Below the pieces are notes generated by a model, which worked only from the letters and a program-made list of their open reading frames with translations, ran no database searches and was not told the origin of the DNA. Below are positions 12,775-29,158 of a stretch of 40,344 nt of DNA, one piece after another. Where the stretch lies: the IMG/VR virus record IMGVR_UViG_3300036781_000285, positions 1 to 40,344 of that record, one strand, 5' to 3'. This stretch comes from a virus. The number at the start of each line of letters is the position of its first letter. The stretch's first letter is position 1. A program made the position numbers and the translations under genes.

Positions 12775-12778
12775 TTTT

Positions 12779-13428
12779 GCCTTTGCATTGCTCAACCACG
12801 CCCCCCACTGCCTTCGCTTTGATCATCCTTGCAACGCTCGGCAGAATCGAACTTCGCACCGCCTTTGCCATACGTCACCTTGCGTCACCTTCGCTACGCG
12901 CTACGGGGCATGGCCTCTGCAATACTCCGCTGAACCCCGACGATGCTTTGCTGTGCTTGGCGTTGCCTTTGCAGTTCGACGCATTGCGAAGCGATGCCGC
13001 TGCATTGCTTCGCACTGCGACACACCACTATGCCGGGGCGATACTGTGCCAAGCGTAGCCGTGGCCGCTACGATGCAGGTCATCGCTTCACATCGCCGTT
13101 GCTGTGCGTAACTTCGCATTTCCGGAGCTTTACCGCGCCTGACCTTGCTTATCCATTGCGCCGCGTGATCTCGCATTGCTCTTCCCTGGCGCTGCTCAGC
13201 TTCACATAGCCTTTGCCCATCGCCGCCTAACTCCGCTATACCTTTGCATTTCAGGGCCCTGCTCTGCCATGCGCTTCCGTTGCGTTGCTCTGTTATGCAA
13301 TGCCGGTGCGCCGCGCAGCCACGCACGGCCATAGCGGTGCAGCGCTGCGCAGTGCTCTGCCAATGCTTTGCCGTGCCCGGCAACACCTTCGCCGTTCCCT
13401 GCCCTGCTGTTCAGTGCCATTGCGGGAT
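12779..13428 (-). repeat. Degenerate GC-anchored pentamer array
   Basis: 650 bases between the RAMP-like gene (stop at 13429) and the next gene hold no recognisable gene. The minus strand is built from short words in which GC, or sometimes GG or GT, recurs every 5 (at times 6) bases with three variable bases between, for instance GC-AGA-GC-ACT-GC-GCA in 13357-13341. Words like GCAAAGC, GCAATGC, GCACAGC and GGCAAAG recur throughout. A 5-base period does not match codons, so the open frames crossing it (for example 12904-13386) are probably by-products of the composition. There are no fixed repeats and spacers, so it is not a CRISPR array. It could be a structured or protein-bound RNA, or a DNA-binding array. 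Role unknown. Confidence 0.8.
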
Positions 13429-14040
13429 TTAAGCGAGTTCTTCCCAAGTGAAACGGCCTTTGCCTGAATTCCGCCATTGGCCGATTCCCTTGAATTGACC
13501 GTAATCCAAACACTCGCGGATCATCGGTTCGGTGATCGGTGCGTTTGGCAGCAATCGGATTTCAATTTCAAACGATGTGCCGGCCGAGATCACTTCTGAT
13601 CGCGCAAGACTCACGCGCGGGCCCTGCATGGTCTGAGCGCGAAGCGGCCGCTCGCAAATGTCGTCACACTCCTTTTTGCCGAGCGAGATTTTGCGGGGGA
13701 AGACGAAAACGAAATTGTCGAATTTCGACTTCGCGGACCCCCAGCGTTTGCGGGTTTTCTTTTCGCCGTCCGTTTGCTTTGGCTCCTCCTCGGTCTGGCG
13801 AAGGATGTCGGCCGCTTCCTTGAGAAATCCTTTCACTTGGTAATCCCACAGCATCAGATCACCGGCCTCGTTGCGGTGAAAGATGGTCGTCCCGGCTTCC
13901 TCGCGGTGTTCCGCGGTGTCGAGTTCTTCCTTGCGCCGATCGCCGTCCGGAGCTTTCGAGGCGATGAAGGTCGCAAAGACGTCTTTGTTCGCGGCTTTGG
14001 TTCCGAGTAATTCCTCGGTAAACGTTATTTTGATTTTCAT
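13429..14040 (-). CDS. RAMP-like protein with C-terminal glycine-rich loop
   Basis: A 203-residue protein. It begins with a beta strand (MKIKITFTEELLGT) and carries near its C-terminus GQFKGIGQWRNSGKGRF (residues 181-197), a double-glycine loop of the type seen in RAMP/Cas7 and Cas6 family RNA-binding proteins. The stretch PLRAQTMQGPRVSLARSEVI (132-151) before a long strand also fits a RAMP-like fold. From memory, similar proteins occur in phages of Firmicutes next to comparable short-word repeat regions; this was not checked. It opens with the leader motif at 14042-14053 and lies directly upstream of the pentamer array. No CRISPR or Cas genes are nearby. RNA binding is an inference. Confidence 0.65.
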   Translation of the reverse strand: MKIKITFTEELLGTKAANKDVFATFIASKAPDGDRRKEELDTAEHREEAGTTIFHRNEAGDLMLWDYQVKGFLKEAADILRQTEEEPKQTDGEKKTRKRWGSAKSKFDNFVFVFPRKISLGKKECDDICERPLRAQTMQGPRVSLARSEVISAGTSFEIEIRLLPNAPITEPMIRECLDYGQFKGIGQWRNSGKGRFTWEELA

Positions 14041-14129: not shown

Positions 14130-14774
14130 TTATTTTCGGATGTAAAACCCATCGCCCCACAGTCCGCCGTGCCAAATGGTTTCGACACGGGAAAAGCCAA
14201 ATTTCGCAAGATAACTGTCGAGCATTTCAACCCGGGCGCATCCGTCGAATACCTCGCCGCGGTTGATCTCGGTAAAAATGTAATCGATGCCGCGCAAGGT
14301 GTGCTCCGCGCCGTATAGCACATGGAGCTCATATCCTTGGGCGTCCATGAAAAGGAAATTGTAGTCGCCCGCGCAAAACCATGCTGGGAACGCATATGAA
14401 ACGATGTCGTCCAGTCGACGGACTTTCACCGTTTCTTTATGGGTAAATTCAATGTCCGGCCTGATCGCCAAATGTTCGCGTGGCGTGAGTAGTGAGCAGG
14501 ATTGTCCGCCATTGCTCGTTTCAATGTTCATCGGGAGAAAGCCGTTGATGTTCCCCAATGCGGTCTCGAATGCCAATACGTTGACGCCGTCCGGCCGGAC
14601 GCGCTGCTTCAGGATTTCGAAGTTCGCGCCGACCGGTTCGAAATAGACCCGGTGCTTGATGCCGGCGGCGATCCATATCGGATCTTCCTGGCCGTGATGG
14701 GCGCCGACCTGGATCACGCCGCGGACGTGCATCCGGTGCTTGATCATCAGGGTTTGGAATTCGGGGGCGGTCAT
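14130..14774 (-). CDS. FkbM-family methyltransferase
   Basis: A 214-residue class I SAM-dependent methyltransferase of the FkbM type. Motif I is VIQVGAHHGQE (residues about 20-30), the post-I acidic residue is in YFEPVGANFE (44-53), and the family block LFMDAQGYELHVLYGAE lies near residues 140-156. These enzymes usually O-methylate sugars or small-molecule hydroxyls. The start overlaps the previous stop (ATGA). In this phage it may modify the same glycan as the two-domain glycosyltransferase, but that is only an inference. All expected motifs are present and the gene looks intact. Confidence 0.8.
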   Translation of the reverse strand: MTAPEFQTLMIKHRMHVRGVIQVGAHHGQEDPIWIAAGIKHRVYFEPVGANFEILKQRVRPDGVNVLAFETALGNINGFLPMNIETSNGGQSCSLLTPREHLAIRPDIEFTHKETVKVRRLDDIVSYAFPAWFCAGDYNFLFMDAQGYELHVLYGAEHTLRGIDYIFTEINRGEVFDGCARVEMLDSYLAKFGFSRVETIWHGGLWGDGFYIRK

Positions 14775-15088
14775 GACTGCTCCTCCGGATCAACAATGTT
14801 CGATTTGTTCGATTTGTTCGAACGATAAGCAGCGCTATCCTGCGTTTCGAAATTCGGGCGAATTTTCTTCTCGCCGATCATATCGATCAGGCCGCAAAGG
14901 ACTTTCCCTTTTTCTTGGGTTGTTAGTTTGCGGTGCATGCCCTGCAGGATCAGGCGCGCGAGATCGTATTTTTCGCGCTTTATGCAGACGTCGGCGCATC
15001 GGATCGAATTCGCTTCGTGATCGGAAAGCGCGGTTGGAGTTTCGGTTGAATCGGTCATGGGGGTTGAATTCTTAGCGGCTTGCGACAT
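14771..15088 (-). CDS. Small hypothetical protein
   Basis: A 105-residue protein (ATG at 15088; a second ATG at 15058 would remove ten residues and leave MTDSTETPTALSD). The middle (NSIRCADVCIKREKYDLARL) is helical with two cysteines and the C-terminus has an SNKSNKSN repeat. No family recognised. Its stop overlaps the FkbM start. The only plus-strand gene starts 20 bases upstream of its start, so the two are divergent. Confidence 0.5.
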   Translation of the reverse strand: MSQAAKNSTPMTDSTETPTALSDHEANSIRCADVCIKREKYDLARLILQGMHRKLTTQEKGKVLCGLIDMIGEKKIRPNFETQDSAAYRSNKSNKSNIVDPEEQS

Positions 15089-15107
15089 CGTTCGAAAGGT
15101 GTGGATT

Positions 15108-15605
15108 TTGAAGATTTGTCCTACTTGTGAAACTGCATTTTCGGTCCCTCCATCTTGGAAAAGGCAACGCTTTTGCAGCCGGAAGTGTGATCCGCACTTT
15201 CAAAAGCCGCGCGTTACTTATGCTTGTATCGCATGCGGAACGTTGCGGACTGTTCAGCCCTCCTCGACGCGCAAAAAGTTTTGCGGCGATAAATGCCGGC
15301 TTGAATGGTTTTCTTCTGAATTTCGGGGGGATAAGAGTCCACATTGGCAGGGCGGACAAAGCGAATATTACGGGCCAAATTGGAAGCTGCAGCGCGACCT
15401 GGCGCGCAATCGAGACAACTATTGCTGCGTAGATTGCGGGATCCCTGAAGATGAAATGACAGAGCAGCTCTCCGTCTCTCATGTTGCAGCGTTTCGGGAA
15501 TTTGGTTTGGCGAGATATATCGAAGCGAACGACCTCGCCAATTTGCGAAGCCGTTGCCGCACTTGTCATATCAAACATGATTGGTCCGTTGGACATCGGA
15601 CTTAG
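15108..15605 (+). CDS. HNH endonuclease (homing-type)
   Basis: The only convincing plus-strand gene. The 165-residue protein (TTG at 15108 with AAAGGTG ahead; a GTG at 15099 is the alternative) begins with zinc-binding pairs (CPTC, then FCSRKC, and CIACG then FCGDKC) and ends in an HNH domain: CCVDCG, then LSVSHVAAF, and NLRSRCRTCHIKH. This is the layout of free-standing homing endonucleases. It is visibly more AT-rich (about 50% GC in the lines counted) than the genes around it, and it sits against the strand of everything else. Its TAG overlaps the TAA of the opposing gene (TTAG). It looks like a recent insertion. Confidence 0.85.
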   Translation: MKICPTCETAFSVPPSWKRQRFCSRKCDPHFQKPRVTYACIACGTLRTVQPSSTRKKFCGDKCRLEWFSSEFRGDKSPHWQGGQSEYYGPNWKLQRDLARNRDNYCCVDCGIPEDEMTEQLSVSHVAAFREFGLARYIEANDLANLRSRCRTCHIKHDWSVGHRT

Positions 15606-15940: not shown

Positions 15941-16254
15941 TGGCGGGAGTTGGTTGGATGACGTTGAAAAAGATGCCGGCGCGCGCGGGGAACGTAGGTC
16001 CGCGCGGGTTCGGTGATCGGAATCGGCGACAAAAGGCGCCGGAAAAAAACAAGGCGATGCTCGCGCCAGAATTCAAACTCCCGGCCGTCTCGATCGATGA
16101 TTTCCATGATCCTTTCTTCGGGATCGAATCCGGGGCCGAGCGGTTCGCCCGGTTGCATCGCGCCGGCGTAGTCCAGCACGGAGGCGGCGAAACAGCGCGG
16201 CGCGCCCGGGTCGAGGTCGAGAACCATCCGAACGAATTCATCCAATGGCTTCAT
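15916..16254 (-). CDS. Small hypothetical protein
   Basis: A 112-residue protein that starts MKPLDEFVRMVLDLDPGAPR at an ATG overlapping the methyltransferase stop (ATGA), a strong argument for this start over the in-frame ATG at 16287. The C-terminal third is basic (PRARRHLFQRHPTNSRQW) and overlaps the next gene. No domain recognised. Its tight coupling to the cytosine methyltransferase suggests joint expression, without proving a shared task. Confidence 0.55.
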   Translation of the reverse strand: MKPLDEFVRMVLDLDPGAPRCFAASVLDYAGAMQPGEPLGPGFDPEERIMEIIDRDGREFEFWREHRLVFFRRLLSPIPITEPARTYVPRARRHLFQRHPTNSRQWLPISSK

Positions 16255-17365
16255 TTGATTTCGCCGGTTTCGATTTGCCGGATCCAATGGAAGAATTTTT
16301 CGACGACTTGCGGGACAATCGCGTTCCCGAGTCCTTTAAGGCGGTCCACCCTATCGGGTATCCCATCAGCCACTCTACAAAATCCGGATTCAGGGAGCCA
16401 CTCACACCAGTCCGCATTAACGCTCCCGGAATGTTGTCCCGGTTGAGCTGGCTCGCCGGAAGCGTCGCGTTTTTGTGTTCCTGCATTGACGGCGTCGGCC
16501 ATAGTCGGGCCGCCTTGCTCAATGTCGGATTTCCCGTCCCGTAATTCCCCCCTTTCATTCCGTCCGATGCTGTTGGGGTTGGAAATATCGATTGATTGAC
16601 CGCCCTGCCCAATTCGTTCCCCGATGGGCCGTTGCTCTTCCCGTCCTTGCTGAATCCATGCGGTGTCGGCCACATCTTTGCCGCTGTCGCAAGATTCGGG
16701 TGAGATCCCCCCCCCCGTTCGCTGCGCGGCAATTTCTGTCTCGCTCGGAATTTCTCCATATCCTTTTCCGGTTCCATCGCGCATGGTGTCGGAAACAGTT
16801 TGTTGGGAAAGTTCCCCCGCATCACACTCTGCAAGTCCGCGCCGCGTTTCCCGTCCGGCCTCCGGCCCCCTTGTCTCGATGAGGTCGCTGTGGGCCACAA
16901 TCCAGACCCGATCCCTTCGATGTCGGGCATCGACGGCACAAGCCGGAATAATAAACGATTGCGCGGAGTAGCCGACGCTTTCCAAGTCAGAAAGCACACT
17001 GTCGAGCCCCATGCTGACATGCCCAAACACGTTTTCACAAATAATCCAAGATGGCCGGACGATTTTGATAATTGCGAACATTGCCGGCCACAAGTGGCGA
17101 TCGTCATTCGATCCTCCTCGCTTCCCGGCAAAACTGAATGGCTGGCACGGGTAGCCGCCGGTGAGAACGGCGGGTCGAGAAATTCCGGAAAAAGACTCCA
17201 GTCTTCGGATGTCTCCGAGATTGGGGACGTCGGGAAAATGCAGGGCGAGGATTTTGCAGGCGTAGGCTTCAATTTCCGAGAAGCCAATCGTCCGGAATCC
17301 GGCTCGTTTTGCAGCAAGGGCAAATCCTCCGATTCCTGAAAAGAGGTCAAGATGGGTGAGGTCAT
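16238..17365 (-). CDS. Overprinted second frame inside the cytosine methyltransferase gene
   Basis: A 375-codon open frame in the +1 phase, running almost the whole length of the methyltransferase gene and past its stop. It shows motifs not expected of chance: CFLTWKASATPRNRLLF, five copies of a WPTP-like word (LWPTAT, LFPTPC, MWPTPH, IFPTPT, LWPTPS) and NPDFVEWLMGYPIGWTAL near the end. I recall near-identical strings in predicted phage and prophage proteins, usually annotated as methyltransferase-associated. They may be true second proteins or by-products of conserved methyltransferase codons. No coupled or Shine-Dalgarno start was found for it. Confidence 0.3.
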   Translation of the reverse strand: MTSPILTSFQESEDLPLLQNEPDSGRLASRKLKPTPAKSSPCIFPTSPISETSEDWSLFPEFLDPPFSPAATRASHSVLPGSEEDRMTIATCGRQCSQLSKSSGHLGLFVKTCLGMSAWGSTVCFLTWKASATPRNRLLFRLVPSMPDIEGIGSGLWPTATSSRQGGRRPDGKRGADLQSVMRGNFPNKLFPTPCAMEPEKDMEKFRARQKLPRSERGGGSHPNLATAAKMWPTPHGFSKDGKSNGPSGNELGRAVNQSIFPTPTASDGMKGGNYGTGNPTLSKAARLWPTPSMQEHKNATLPASQLNRDNIPGALMRTGVSGSLNPDFVEWLMGYPIGWTALKDSGTRLSRKSSKNSSIGSGKSKPAKSNEAIG

Positions 17366-17372
17366 TTTTCAT
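16251..17372 (-). CDS. DNA (cytosine-5) methyltransferase
   Basis: A 373-residue C5 cytosine methyltransferase with all key motifs: DLFSGIGG (residues 9-16, SAM loop), PCQPFS with catalytic Cys76, ENV (113-115), RHRRDRVW (150-157) and the C-terminal GNAIVPQ (about 349-355). The target recognition region between motifs VIII and IX (about 165-320) is long and made of repeated VADT/SNP-like steps. It would methylate phage DNA, probably to escape host restriction, together with the adenine methyltransferase at 20892. The same DNA also holds a full second open frame (16238-17365). Confidence 0.92.
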   Translation of the reverse strand: MKNDLTHLDLFSGIGGFALAAKRAGFRTIGFSEIEAYACKILALHFPDVPNLGDIRRLESFSGISRPAVLTGGYPCQPFSFAGKRGGSNDDRHLWPAMFAIIKIVRPSWIICENVFGHVSMGLDSVLSDLESVGYSAQSFIIPACAVDARHRRDRVWIVAHSDLIETRGPEAGRETRRGLAECDAGELSQQTVSDTMRDGTGKGYGEIPSETEIAAQRTGGGISPESCDSGKDVADTAWIQQGREEQRPIGERIGQGGQSIDISNPNSIGRNERGELRDGKSDIEQGGPTMADAVNAGTQKRDASGEPAQPGQHSGSVNADWCEWLPESGFCRVADGIPDRVDRLKGLGNAIVPQVVEKFFHWIRQIETGEIK

Positions 17373-20891: not shown

Positions 20892-22007
20892 TTAAAATTG
20901 GAGTTCGTCCCGGCGCGGGTTCAGGCAATGCGGGGAAAACCAGATCCGCTCGAGCTCGGCGTTTTTGTTCGCTTTGACCCGGTTCGCGCAGCCGCCGGCG
21001 GCCTTCCATGCCACACATTCCCATGTGTCGGGCATTTTGTGCTCTCCCTCGTATCCGCAAAGCACGATCCGCAAGCGATGGTCGTCGCCGTGATCGATCG
21101 CCCATTGCCGGACTTCGTTCGAAAGTTCGGCCGTCCCGTCGCTCGAATAAAGGCCGCGATCGCGAAGTTTGAGGCAATACGGCGGATCAAGAACTACGGC
21201 GGTTTTAAAACCCGGCGGAACGTTCGAAGTCAGGCCGAGCGGAGTGTTGCCGAGCACTCGCTTCCAGTCGCCGCATGCGACCCGAACGCGACGAAAGCGC
21301 GCGGCGAGATCATCAAACCATTTCAAAAGGTTTTCGTCATTGTTCGCGCCCTTGTCGCACATCGCATTCAAATCCGGCATCTGATCCGAGACGCGCAAAG
21401 GCGGGTGGAAAGTCTGGTTGACGCCCTTCGGATGAAGTTGCGGAACTTTTTGGTGAATCCCGTTTTTGCTTTGAACGCCGATGGATTTGCCGGCGGTCAT
21501 TTGCGGCCGTCTTTTTTCGACTGCATTAACTCCGGATGATCTTCCGGATTCAATCTTGGGAATCTGCTTTTTTGGCCCATTCGGCCGCAAGGCGCACCAT
21601 CCTCCGCCGATCCAACAGGACAAACCCCAAACCCACCAGCCGGCAAGCTTCGCGTCGTAAAACGACGGATCCGTTCGGACGCGCTCCCTGAATTCTTCGG
21701 AATTGACGAGGTGCAAATGTCGGGCGTGAAGATCGGCTTCATTGACCGGCCAATCCGCGAACCGCGCGACCTTATCGGGCGCATCCTGAACCGCGCGCCA
21801 AAAGTTCGAAAGGTAGCAGTCCAAATCGTTCACCGTTTCCGACCCCGGGAGCGTCGGCCGGCCGAGCAAGATCGCCCCGGATCCGAAAAACGGTTCAACG
21901 TAATTGTCCACATCACCCAGGCGTTCCCAAATCAACGCGGCGGCGCGGGCTTTTCCGCCAAACCACGGGAACGGGGCTTTCAGATCAGGATTTTTTACGG
22001 GGTTCAT
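20892..22007 (-). CDS. DNA adenine methyltransferase (D12 class)
   Basis: A 371-residue N6-adenine methyltransferase of the Dam/D12 class. PFPWFGGK (residues 12-19) is the SAM-binding opening of the class, VEPFFGSGA (37-45) follows, and the catalytic DPPY is at 274-277. It should methylate adenines in phage DNA. The central insertion (about 145-235) is unusually long. The gene lies immediately downstream of the structured-RNA candidate 22139-22620. Together with the cytosine methyltransferase it suggests protection against several restriction systems. Confidence 0.9.
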   Translation of the reverse strand: MNPVKNPDLKAPFPWFGGKARAAALIWERLGDVDNYVEPFFGSGAILLGRPTLPGSETVNDLDCYLSNFWRAVQDAPDKVARFADWPVNEADLHARHLHLVNSEEFRERVRTDPSFYDAKLAGWWVWGLSCWIGGGWCALRPNGPKKQIPKIESGRSSGVNAVEKRRPQMTAGKSIGVQSKNGIHQKVPQLHPKGVNQTFHPPLRVSDQMPDLNAMCDKGANNDENLLKWFDDLAARFRRVRVACGDWKRVLGNTPLGLTSNVPPGFKTAVVLDPPYCLKLRDRGLYSSDGTAELSNEVRQWAIDHGDDHRLRIVLCGYEGEHKMPDTWECVAWKAAGGCANRVKANKNAELERIWFSPHCLNPRRDELQF

Positions 22008-28157: not shown

Positions 28158-28538
28158 TTAAAGGGAAATGTCTTTGTCGAGTTCACACGCCGGCGAGCGC
28201 ACTTCGACCGGTCCATGTCGCGCAACTTCGATCGCTTCTTTTTGATCCTCTAATTCCCCGGCGCGGTGGATCGCCCATTGAAAGCCGTCCGTCGATTCCC
28301 AAAAGGTTTTCGCTCTGCCGTATTGAGAGAATAAATTAAGCGGGATCGCTTGGACCTCGGGAAAGTTCTGCAAAACGGGCGTCGGGATCTTCTTTTCCCC
28401 GTCCAACAATTGGCGAAAAATCTCGCAGTCTAAAACGGTGCTTTCTCCGTTCTCGTCTGTCGTGACGATCCGCTTGCGGATCACGCCGAAAGCGATCCCG
28501 CCTTGATATTGAATTAAAATCGGTTCGTTGATGTCCAT
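28158..28538 (-). CDS. Hypothetical protein
   Basis: A 126-residue protein starting MDINEPILIQYQGGIAFGV, 12 bases upstream of the SbcC-like start. The first half is strand-rich (FGVIRKRIVTTDENGES), the second helical. No catalytic or metal site found. It lies in the recombination cluster, which is the only clue. Confidence 0.5.
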   Translation of the reverse strand: MDINEPILIQYQGGIAFGVIRKRIVTTDENGESTVLDCEIFRQLLDGEKKIPTPVLQNFPEVQAIPLNLFSQYGRAKTFWESTDGFQWAIHRAGELEDQKEAIEVARHGPVEVRSPACELDKDISL

Positions 28539-28547
28539 GGATGGGGA

Positions 28548-28973
28548 TCAGTTGTGTGATGGGTTGATGACGCTTTCGCGGTTTGGGTTCTGAACGATCT
28601 CGACGAACCACGCCGGCGGGATTTGTCCGGAGACAAGCCGCCAATAATGATTCCCGGGAAAGGAATTTAAAAAGGACTCGGAATCGGGGTGATATTTTCG
28701 CGCCATGAGCGGCCAGGGAACGACGCGATCGAGGGCGATCGGCGGAATCGCAATCGTAATCCGCCATTCATCGCGCCGGAAGGGAAGGTGGGAATGTGGT
28801 TGGGGCCTCGCCCATTCCTGCATGAAATCGCCATTGATCGTGGTCCATTGCCATCCGCCCACCATTGAAACCCGATCAAGCTTGTCGAGATTCCATGGGA
28901 TGACGCCCTTCGTCAATCCCTGCGCCCGGATCAATGGAATGTGTTTCCGCGAGGTGAAGTGATATAAGGTCAT
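28548..28973 (-). CDS. ART-like small protein (possible ADP-ribosyltransferase fold)
   Basis: A 141-residue protein. Its opening MTLYHFTSRKHIPLIRAQGL is the YHFT...I...GL start seen in RNA 2'-phosphotransferase/ART-like and DarT-like families, and it ends with LVSGQIPPAWFVEI. The middle has FRRDEWRITIAIPPIALDRV. From memory, a family with this plan exists in phages, called only hypothetical. The catalytic residues were not assigned and no toxin partner is seen next door. Overlaps the next gene's stop (ATGA). Confidence 0.5.
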   Translation of the reverse strand: MTLYHFTSRKHIPLIRAQGLTKGVIPWNLDKLDRVSMVGGWQWTTINGDFMQEWARPQPHSHLPFRRDEWRITIAIPPIALDRVVPWPLMARKYHPDSESFLNSFPGNHYWRLVSGQIPPAWFVEIVQNPNRESVINPSHN

Positions 28974-29158
28974 GATTTGCGCGCCGCCTTATTGGCGGTG
29001 TATTTCTCGACATTTTGAGCCATCGAAGTGCCGAGGTTTTCGAAAATGGTGCTCCCGGCAAAAAACCCGGTCGTCAGGGAATACCAGACGAAAGAGCAGA
29101 TGAATCCGATCAAAAGGAAGGGGATCATCACCATGAAGAAGAGAATCATTTTGATCAT
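28970..29158 (-). CDS. Small membrane protein
   Basis: A 62-residue protein from the ATG at 29158 with one strongly hydrophobic stretch (residues about 4-35, MILFFMVMIPFLLIGFICSF and on), followed by a polar tail ending in KYTANKAARKS. It would be a one- or two-span inner-membrane protein. No function known; it is produced early. The start chosen leaves only 7 bases after the previous stop. Confidence 0.55.
   Translation of the reverse strand: MIKMILFFMVMIPFLLIGFICSFVWYSLTTGFFAGSTIFENLGTSMAQNVEKYTANKAARKS

Follow-up and report, generated by a model that had tools for sequence, protein, structure and literature searches.

A phage RAMP protein and its adjoining pentamer array probably form a VIPR-like RNA-guided system

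Does a small RAMP-like protein encoded by a phage in which no CRISPR had been noticed act alone, or is it part of a larger system? The question is raised by a gene in IMG/VR virus record IMGVR_UViG_3300036781_000285, of which positions 1 to 40,344 (the window) were analysed. The gene is probably no stray Cas7 relative: with the array behind it, it seems to make up a VIPR-like system of two parts, probably a variant whose array is designed differently.

A RAMP protein family in phages and prophages

The open reading frame at 13429..14040 lies on the minus strand, starts with ATG and encodes 203 amino acids with the C-terminus ...GQFKGIGQWRNSGKGRFTWEELA, as given in a first-pass annotation. The genome is that of a phage with terminase and portal genes; no relatives of its terminase were found in the viral contigs searched. 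A chance open reading frame is excluded because relatives of the product are encoded in viral contigs and in bacterial genome contigs. A simple search recovered relatives from 5 viral contigs, and a nine-sequence profile recovered them from 289 viral stretches and from 54 bacterial genome contigs, many of which look like prophages, one example being locus L123 of Caldicoprobacter algeriensis TH7C1. Four human faecal phage records have relatives at 41-45% identity, and the range includes Clostridia, Coriobacteriales, Verrucomicrobiota, Saccharibacteria, Gemmatimonadales, Cloacimonadota, WOR-3 and Omnitrophota. Pfam and PHROGs hold no family for the window protein, and the Pfam RAMPs match its family only at E 0.06.

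An alignment of 60 sequences has 12 invariant residues (L12, F54, G71, K74, R131, G140, R142, S148, G185, G187, N191 and G195). The most conserved stretch is a predicted beta-hairpin of two strands around RPLRAQTMQGPRVSLARS (residues 126-152, codons at 13585..13665 on the minus strand; DSSP strands 127-137 and 140-151), which carries R131, G140, R142 and S148 and could serve as a thumb. Also among the best-conserved parts is the C-terminal glycine loop GQFKGIGQWRNSGKGRF, which corresponds to the RNA-contacting loop of RAMPs (residues 181-197, codons at 13450..13500 on the minus strand) and contains the invariant G185, G187, N191 and G195. The first-pass annotation had likened this C-terminus to the RAMP glycine loop, and both that likeness and the RAMP fold it proposed hold up in the alignment, the structural model and the sequence profiles.

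The AlphaFold2 model built from a 60-row homologue alignment (pLDDT 86.9, pTM 0.81) has the ferredoxin/RRM core of a RAMP and, C-terminally, the loop. Foldseek against the PDB places type VII Cas7 first (E 5.5e-9) and Csm3 next, with the match extending over residues 1-203, and VIA-align gives Z 13.7 for type VII Cas7 (158 residues, 4.0 A) and Z 13.1 for Csm3. A profile of 63 family members matches type VII Cas7 (E 1.3e-5) and Csm4 (4e-4) in the PDB, both via the glycine-loop region, and the PADLOC Cas7_IIId model matches 15 of the 63 members (best E 1.2e-4). With its predicted RRM/ferredoxin-like core and C-terminal glycine-rich loop, the 203 aa single-domain protein is assigned by the model to the RAMP superfamily (Cas5/6/7-like), with a Cas7-like fold.

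A pentamer array directly behind the gene

Beginning 5 nt past the stop codon and on the same strand, 648 bases (12776..13423, minus strand) form a guide-like array of 125 pentamers of the form G-Y-N-N-N. Read from 13423 to 12776, the segment has identity peaks at lags 5, 10/11, 16, 21 and 26. In a parse with a repeat HMM the pentamers begin with G (97%), followed by Y (C 72, T 18%), an A-biased third position and two further variable positions. An extra base, nearly always G, is inserted every 5-7 pentamers (boundary GCAAN-G|G), so that the array is split into GG-bounded units of about 26-37 nt, mostly of 5-7 pentamers. The HMM log-odds of the array is 170 nats. None of 200 dinucleotide shuffles of this segment exceeded 0.7, and none of 237 pieces from elsewhere in the window exceeded 0.4. 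No Rfam match was found in the window and hence no hammerhead between units.

Spurious open reading frames of 60-160 aa cross the array on both strands (12901-13386, minus; 13202-13513, minus; 12943-13209, plus), and gene callers will label such guide arrays as low-complexity hypothetical proteins. That the array is itself protein-coding low-complexity sequence, with the 161-aa frame at 12901-13386 (minus) and others on both strands as its genes, would account for these open frames of 60-160 aa. However, all three sense frames of the array contain stops (6, 3 and 10), its period is 5 and not 3, and no frame would survive the +1 insertions. We regard a coding array as scarcely credible.

Linkage of gene and array across homologous loci

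An array of this kind adjoins the gene in 199 non-redundant homologous loci. Nearly all of a first set of 143 loci have one within at most a few hundred bases of the gene, as do 71 of 73 further non-redundant loci in flanking position. Across the 199 loci the array lies downstream only in 120, upstream only in 50 and on both sides in 24, with a median size of 98 pentamers and a maximum of 485. Where position 2 is mainly T and the strands can therefore be distinguished (GT-type arrays; L118, L136, L126, L024 and L075), array and gene have the same sense, with sense-strand counts of 80 vs 14 in L118, 172 vs 3 in L136 and 131 vs 17 in L126. In the pooled loci 71% of 3293 spacings of the extra G are 5-7 pentamers, sharply unlike a geometric law. 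The pentamer at the extra G is GCAAN, and GG occurs only about once per 6 pentamers.

Comparison of the sequences that follow the arrays revealed no shared 3' tail, and 118 loci had neither a conserved accessory (vap) gene nor any close neighbour family in common; no nuclease is conserved beside the gene. Two loci on the bacterial contig JAGCAN010000001.1 (L119 and L121) have seemingly identical gene and array, and represent either the same prophage present twice or a duplication made in assembly. In L087, array pieces of 12-17 pentamers, with gaps between them and without the extra G, lie about 600-1400 nt upstream of the gene; their fifth position is G-rich, and the layout may resemble separate vrRNAs as in SUSP1.

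This co-occurrence bears on the reading of the protein as a true orphan, for example a Cas7-like RNA-binding protein serving as an anti-CRISPR decoy or RNA chaperone beside an unrelated satellite repeat. The Cas7-like fold would suit an orphan, no other Cas gene was seen nearby, and phages are known to carry solitary cas genes that serve as anti-CRISPRs. Nevertheless, nearly every homologous locus, across very different phages and hosts, has an array of the same kind no more than a few hundred bases from the gene, and this largely refutes the orphan reading, which we consider very improbable. The description of the protein as solitary in the first-pass annotation therefore has to be given up, since the gene is half of a two-part locus that corresponds to VIPR (PMC13142463). 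Its statement that there is no CRISPR array or other Cas gene stands as far as true CRISPR in the inspected neighbourhood is concerned, yet the large array of non-CRISPR repeats immediately behind the gene escaped it; its suggestion that the protein may have its own RNA partner finds a likely candidate in this guide-like array, judging by sequence.

Turnover of array units

Seven related contigs (L146-L151 and L167) have whole units in common, in the same order (u4, u5, u8, u13, u19 and others), and their arrays differ by complete GG-bounded units gained or lost; L148, for instance, is without everything that lies between u8 and the last units. The GG-bounded unit would thus behave as a spacer-like guide that is gained or lost whole. 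Substitutions between orthologous units occur at all positions, fewest at position 1, and do not single out reading positions.

Comparison with VIPR and other RNA-guided systems

A weak match in the first profile search, to PDB chain 36pp ('SUSP1 Vipr protein'), pointed to a 2026 preprint that describes the Viral Interference Programmable Repeat (VIPR; PMC13142463). There, VIPR pairs a phage-encoded RAMP protein with vrRNAs built from GGY/NN pentamers 'or a related consensus', recognises double-stranded DNA with one base skipped per step, and represses transcription of competing elements. Vipr is a small single-RRM RAMP that is mainly phage- or prophage-encoded in a minimal locus (PMC13142463). 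We located the vipr gene of the Escherichia phage SUSP1 at 28474-29061 of KT454805, where its product matches 36pp over the whole length, and GGTNN tracts in the same genome. An hhalign comparison of the family profile with SUSP1 Vipr is full-length and collinear, though weak in itself (E 3.3e-4 for a single comparison, probability 38%, 20% identity).

The two loci share a single small RAMP protein (about 200 aa) in a phage, with comparable C-terminal loops (GVGDWRPRFGRF vs GIGQWRNSGKGRF), and flanking non-coding pentamer repeats in which constant and variable bases alternate. The protein and locus agree with the VIPR description (203 aa, a phage genome, 289 viral and 54 genome relatives), and the GYNNN array provides the flanking pentamers in a related consensus, not as GGY/NN itself. 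In contrast to SUSP1 (type II), which has four separate vrRNAs of about 100 nt with GGYNN repeats, a structured 3' tail on each, and vap1, the window has one continuous GYNNN array of GG-bounded units with three variable bases per repeat, without 3' tails or a conserved accessory gene and without GGY in every repeat. The hallmarks of a SUSP1-like locus, separate tailed GGYNN vrRNAs and an adjoining vap gene, are thus absent from the window. The preprint mentions seven VIPR types, some with staggered arrays and overlapping vrRNAs (PMC13142463), and the window locus may be one of these.

Like type VII Cas7 (8yhd, 9j9e) and type III-A Csm3/Csm4, the window protein has the RAMP fold over the whole chain and a glycine loop. 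Unlike type VII and III-A CRISPR-Cas, the locus has no CRISPR repeats, adaptation genes or other effector subunit; its repeats are 5-nt and degenerate, and no cas cluster occurs among the neighbours of 118 loci. The guide period also differs, being 5 in the window array vs the 6-nt register of Cas7 backbones. TIGR-Tas systems resemble the window array in that their guide RNA has split recognition segments in tandem arrays, and their protein probably differs in fold from the window protein.

Coding content of the units

If the guides copy coding DNA and step along it by 3 nt, the three variable positions are expected to look like codons. This was examined in 3,014 distinct units with 15,742 interior pentamers. 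With expectations set within loci, positions 3-5 hold 530 sense stops instead of 640 (z -7.0), and depletion in the other two registers is weaker (z -2.4 and -4.4). The codon signature is a pooled one only; the window's own array has 5 stops in about 101 interior codons, with no visible depletion.

Among peptides common to different arrays, one unit alone stands out. The otherwise unrelated arrays L110 and L139 share a unit in which positions 3-4 are identical in 8 of 8 interior pentamers, with 1 change at position 1, 4 at position 2 and 5, all transitions, at position 5. It reads ATG GCR ACT GGY ACA GGY AAR ACR, that is MATGTGKT, a helicase Walker A motif. The DNA pattern of this unit with the wobble base skipped occurs in at least 120 viral contigs, vs about 6 expected by our own estimate (17 fixed bases, assumed 1e11 positions). 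We read 80 of the sites: 79 fall in frame within long open reading frames, the best differs from the L139 unit at 1 of 24 bases, and all five site proteins tested are ResIII/DEAD helicases. The cross-array identity test by itself is weak (2 matches vs a shuffled mean of 0.18 and maximum of 3), and the force of the match comes from what the unit spells. This is consistent with guides that target a conserved helicase, from a phage or a restriction system, and disregard the wobble base, as put forward in PMC13142463. Judged from these patterns, we think it likely that the units are to be read in codon register.

Searches of fetched phage DNA did not find natural targets of the window's array, and hits for the full set of arrays, sought in 2-3 Mb of this DNA (about 6.8 Mb for both strands), did not exceed shuffled controls. 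The decodings used positions 2-3, 3-4, 4-5, 5-1 and 3-5, target steps 2-6 and several extra-G rules, exact and with mismatches, against all fetched loci. One setting gave an apparent excess, with 23 hits, that vanished against shuffles (6-17), and matches at step 5 were the arrays themselves on the opposite strand. Decoded peptides matched local open reading frames no better than controls did.

Proposed mechanism

We conclude that the gene and array very probably constitute a VIPR-like, virus-encoded, non-CRISPR RNA-guided interference system; direct support, read from sequences and model, comes from the RAMP fold, the array, its linkage to the gene, the unit structure and unit turnover. The array would be transcribed together with the gene. 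Protein subunits would then coat the RNA, with one copy for every pentamer that grips its constant G-Y and displays its variable bases. Read together in steps of 3 nt, as in the '1-nt skip' of VIPR, the variable bases would recognise the DNA of rival phages or of other mobile elements, such that pentamer positions 3-4 would correspond to codon positions 1-2 and position 5 to the wobble base. The bound complex would then block transcription of competitors; repression appears likelier than cutting because no nuclease is conserved beside the gene.

A system of the same make-up could instead act on RNA and silence the transcripts of competitors, and the closest folds, type VII Cas7 and Csm3, are indeed subunits of RNA-targeting complexes. 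However, the units mostly read as coding strand, and a guide of coding-strand sense is complementary to the template DNA strand alone and not to mRNA; furthermore, SUSP1 VIPR binds double-stranded DNA (PMC13142463). RNA targeting is, in our estimation, very unlikely.

Within the VIPR-like reading, we tentatively raise, with rather more doubt than confidence, a distinct branch whose pentamers each combine the constant G-Y with a complete codon. The array would then be a store of brief in-frame segments of competitors' protein genes, the helicase Walker A motif being one example, and its units would be gained and lost like CRISPR spacers, without an adaptation gene nearby. If true, this implies that interleaved guides are written by some mechanism not yet described.

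Unit turnover and the codon-register hint are of greatest interest here. Turnover in sister phages makes guide acquisition without Cas1/Cas2 directly testable, a point relevant to the proposal that CRISPR arose from viral RAMP systems, and the arrays offer more than 20,000 readable repeats for working out the guide code. The findings place a compact, probably RNA-guided system, a protein of about 23 kDa with a repeat array, in hundreds of phages and prophages of Clostridia, Coriobacteria, Verrucomicrobia, Saccharibacteria, candidate phyla and others.

Other genes in the window

Directly upstream of the vipr-like gene is an FkbM-type methyltransferase gene (14130-14774, minus strand) that is not common to other loci. 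At 15057-15605, on the plus strand in an otherwise minus-strand region, there is a weak HNH endonuclease match, possibly a homing endonuclease. The window also encodes two DNA methyltransferases on the minus strand (16238-17372 and 20892-22007), the former with two overlapping open reading frames of about 374 aa in different frames.
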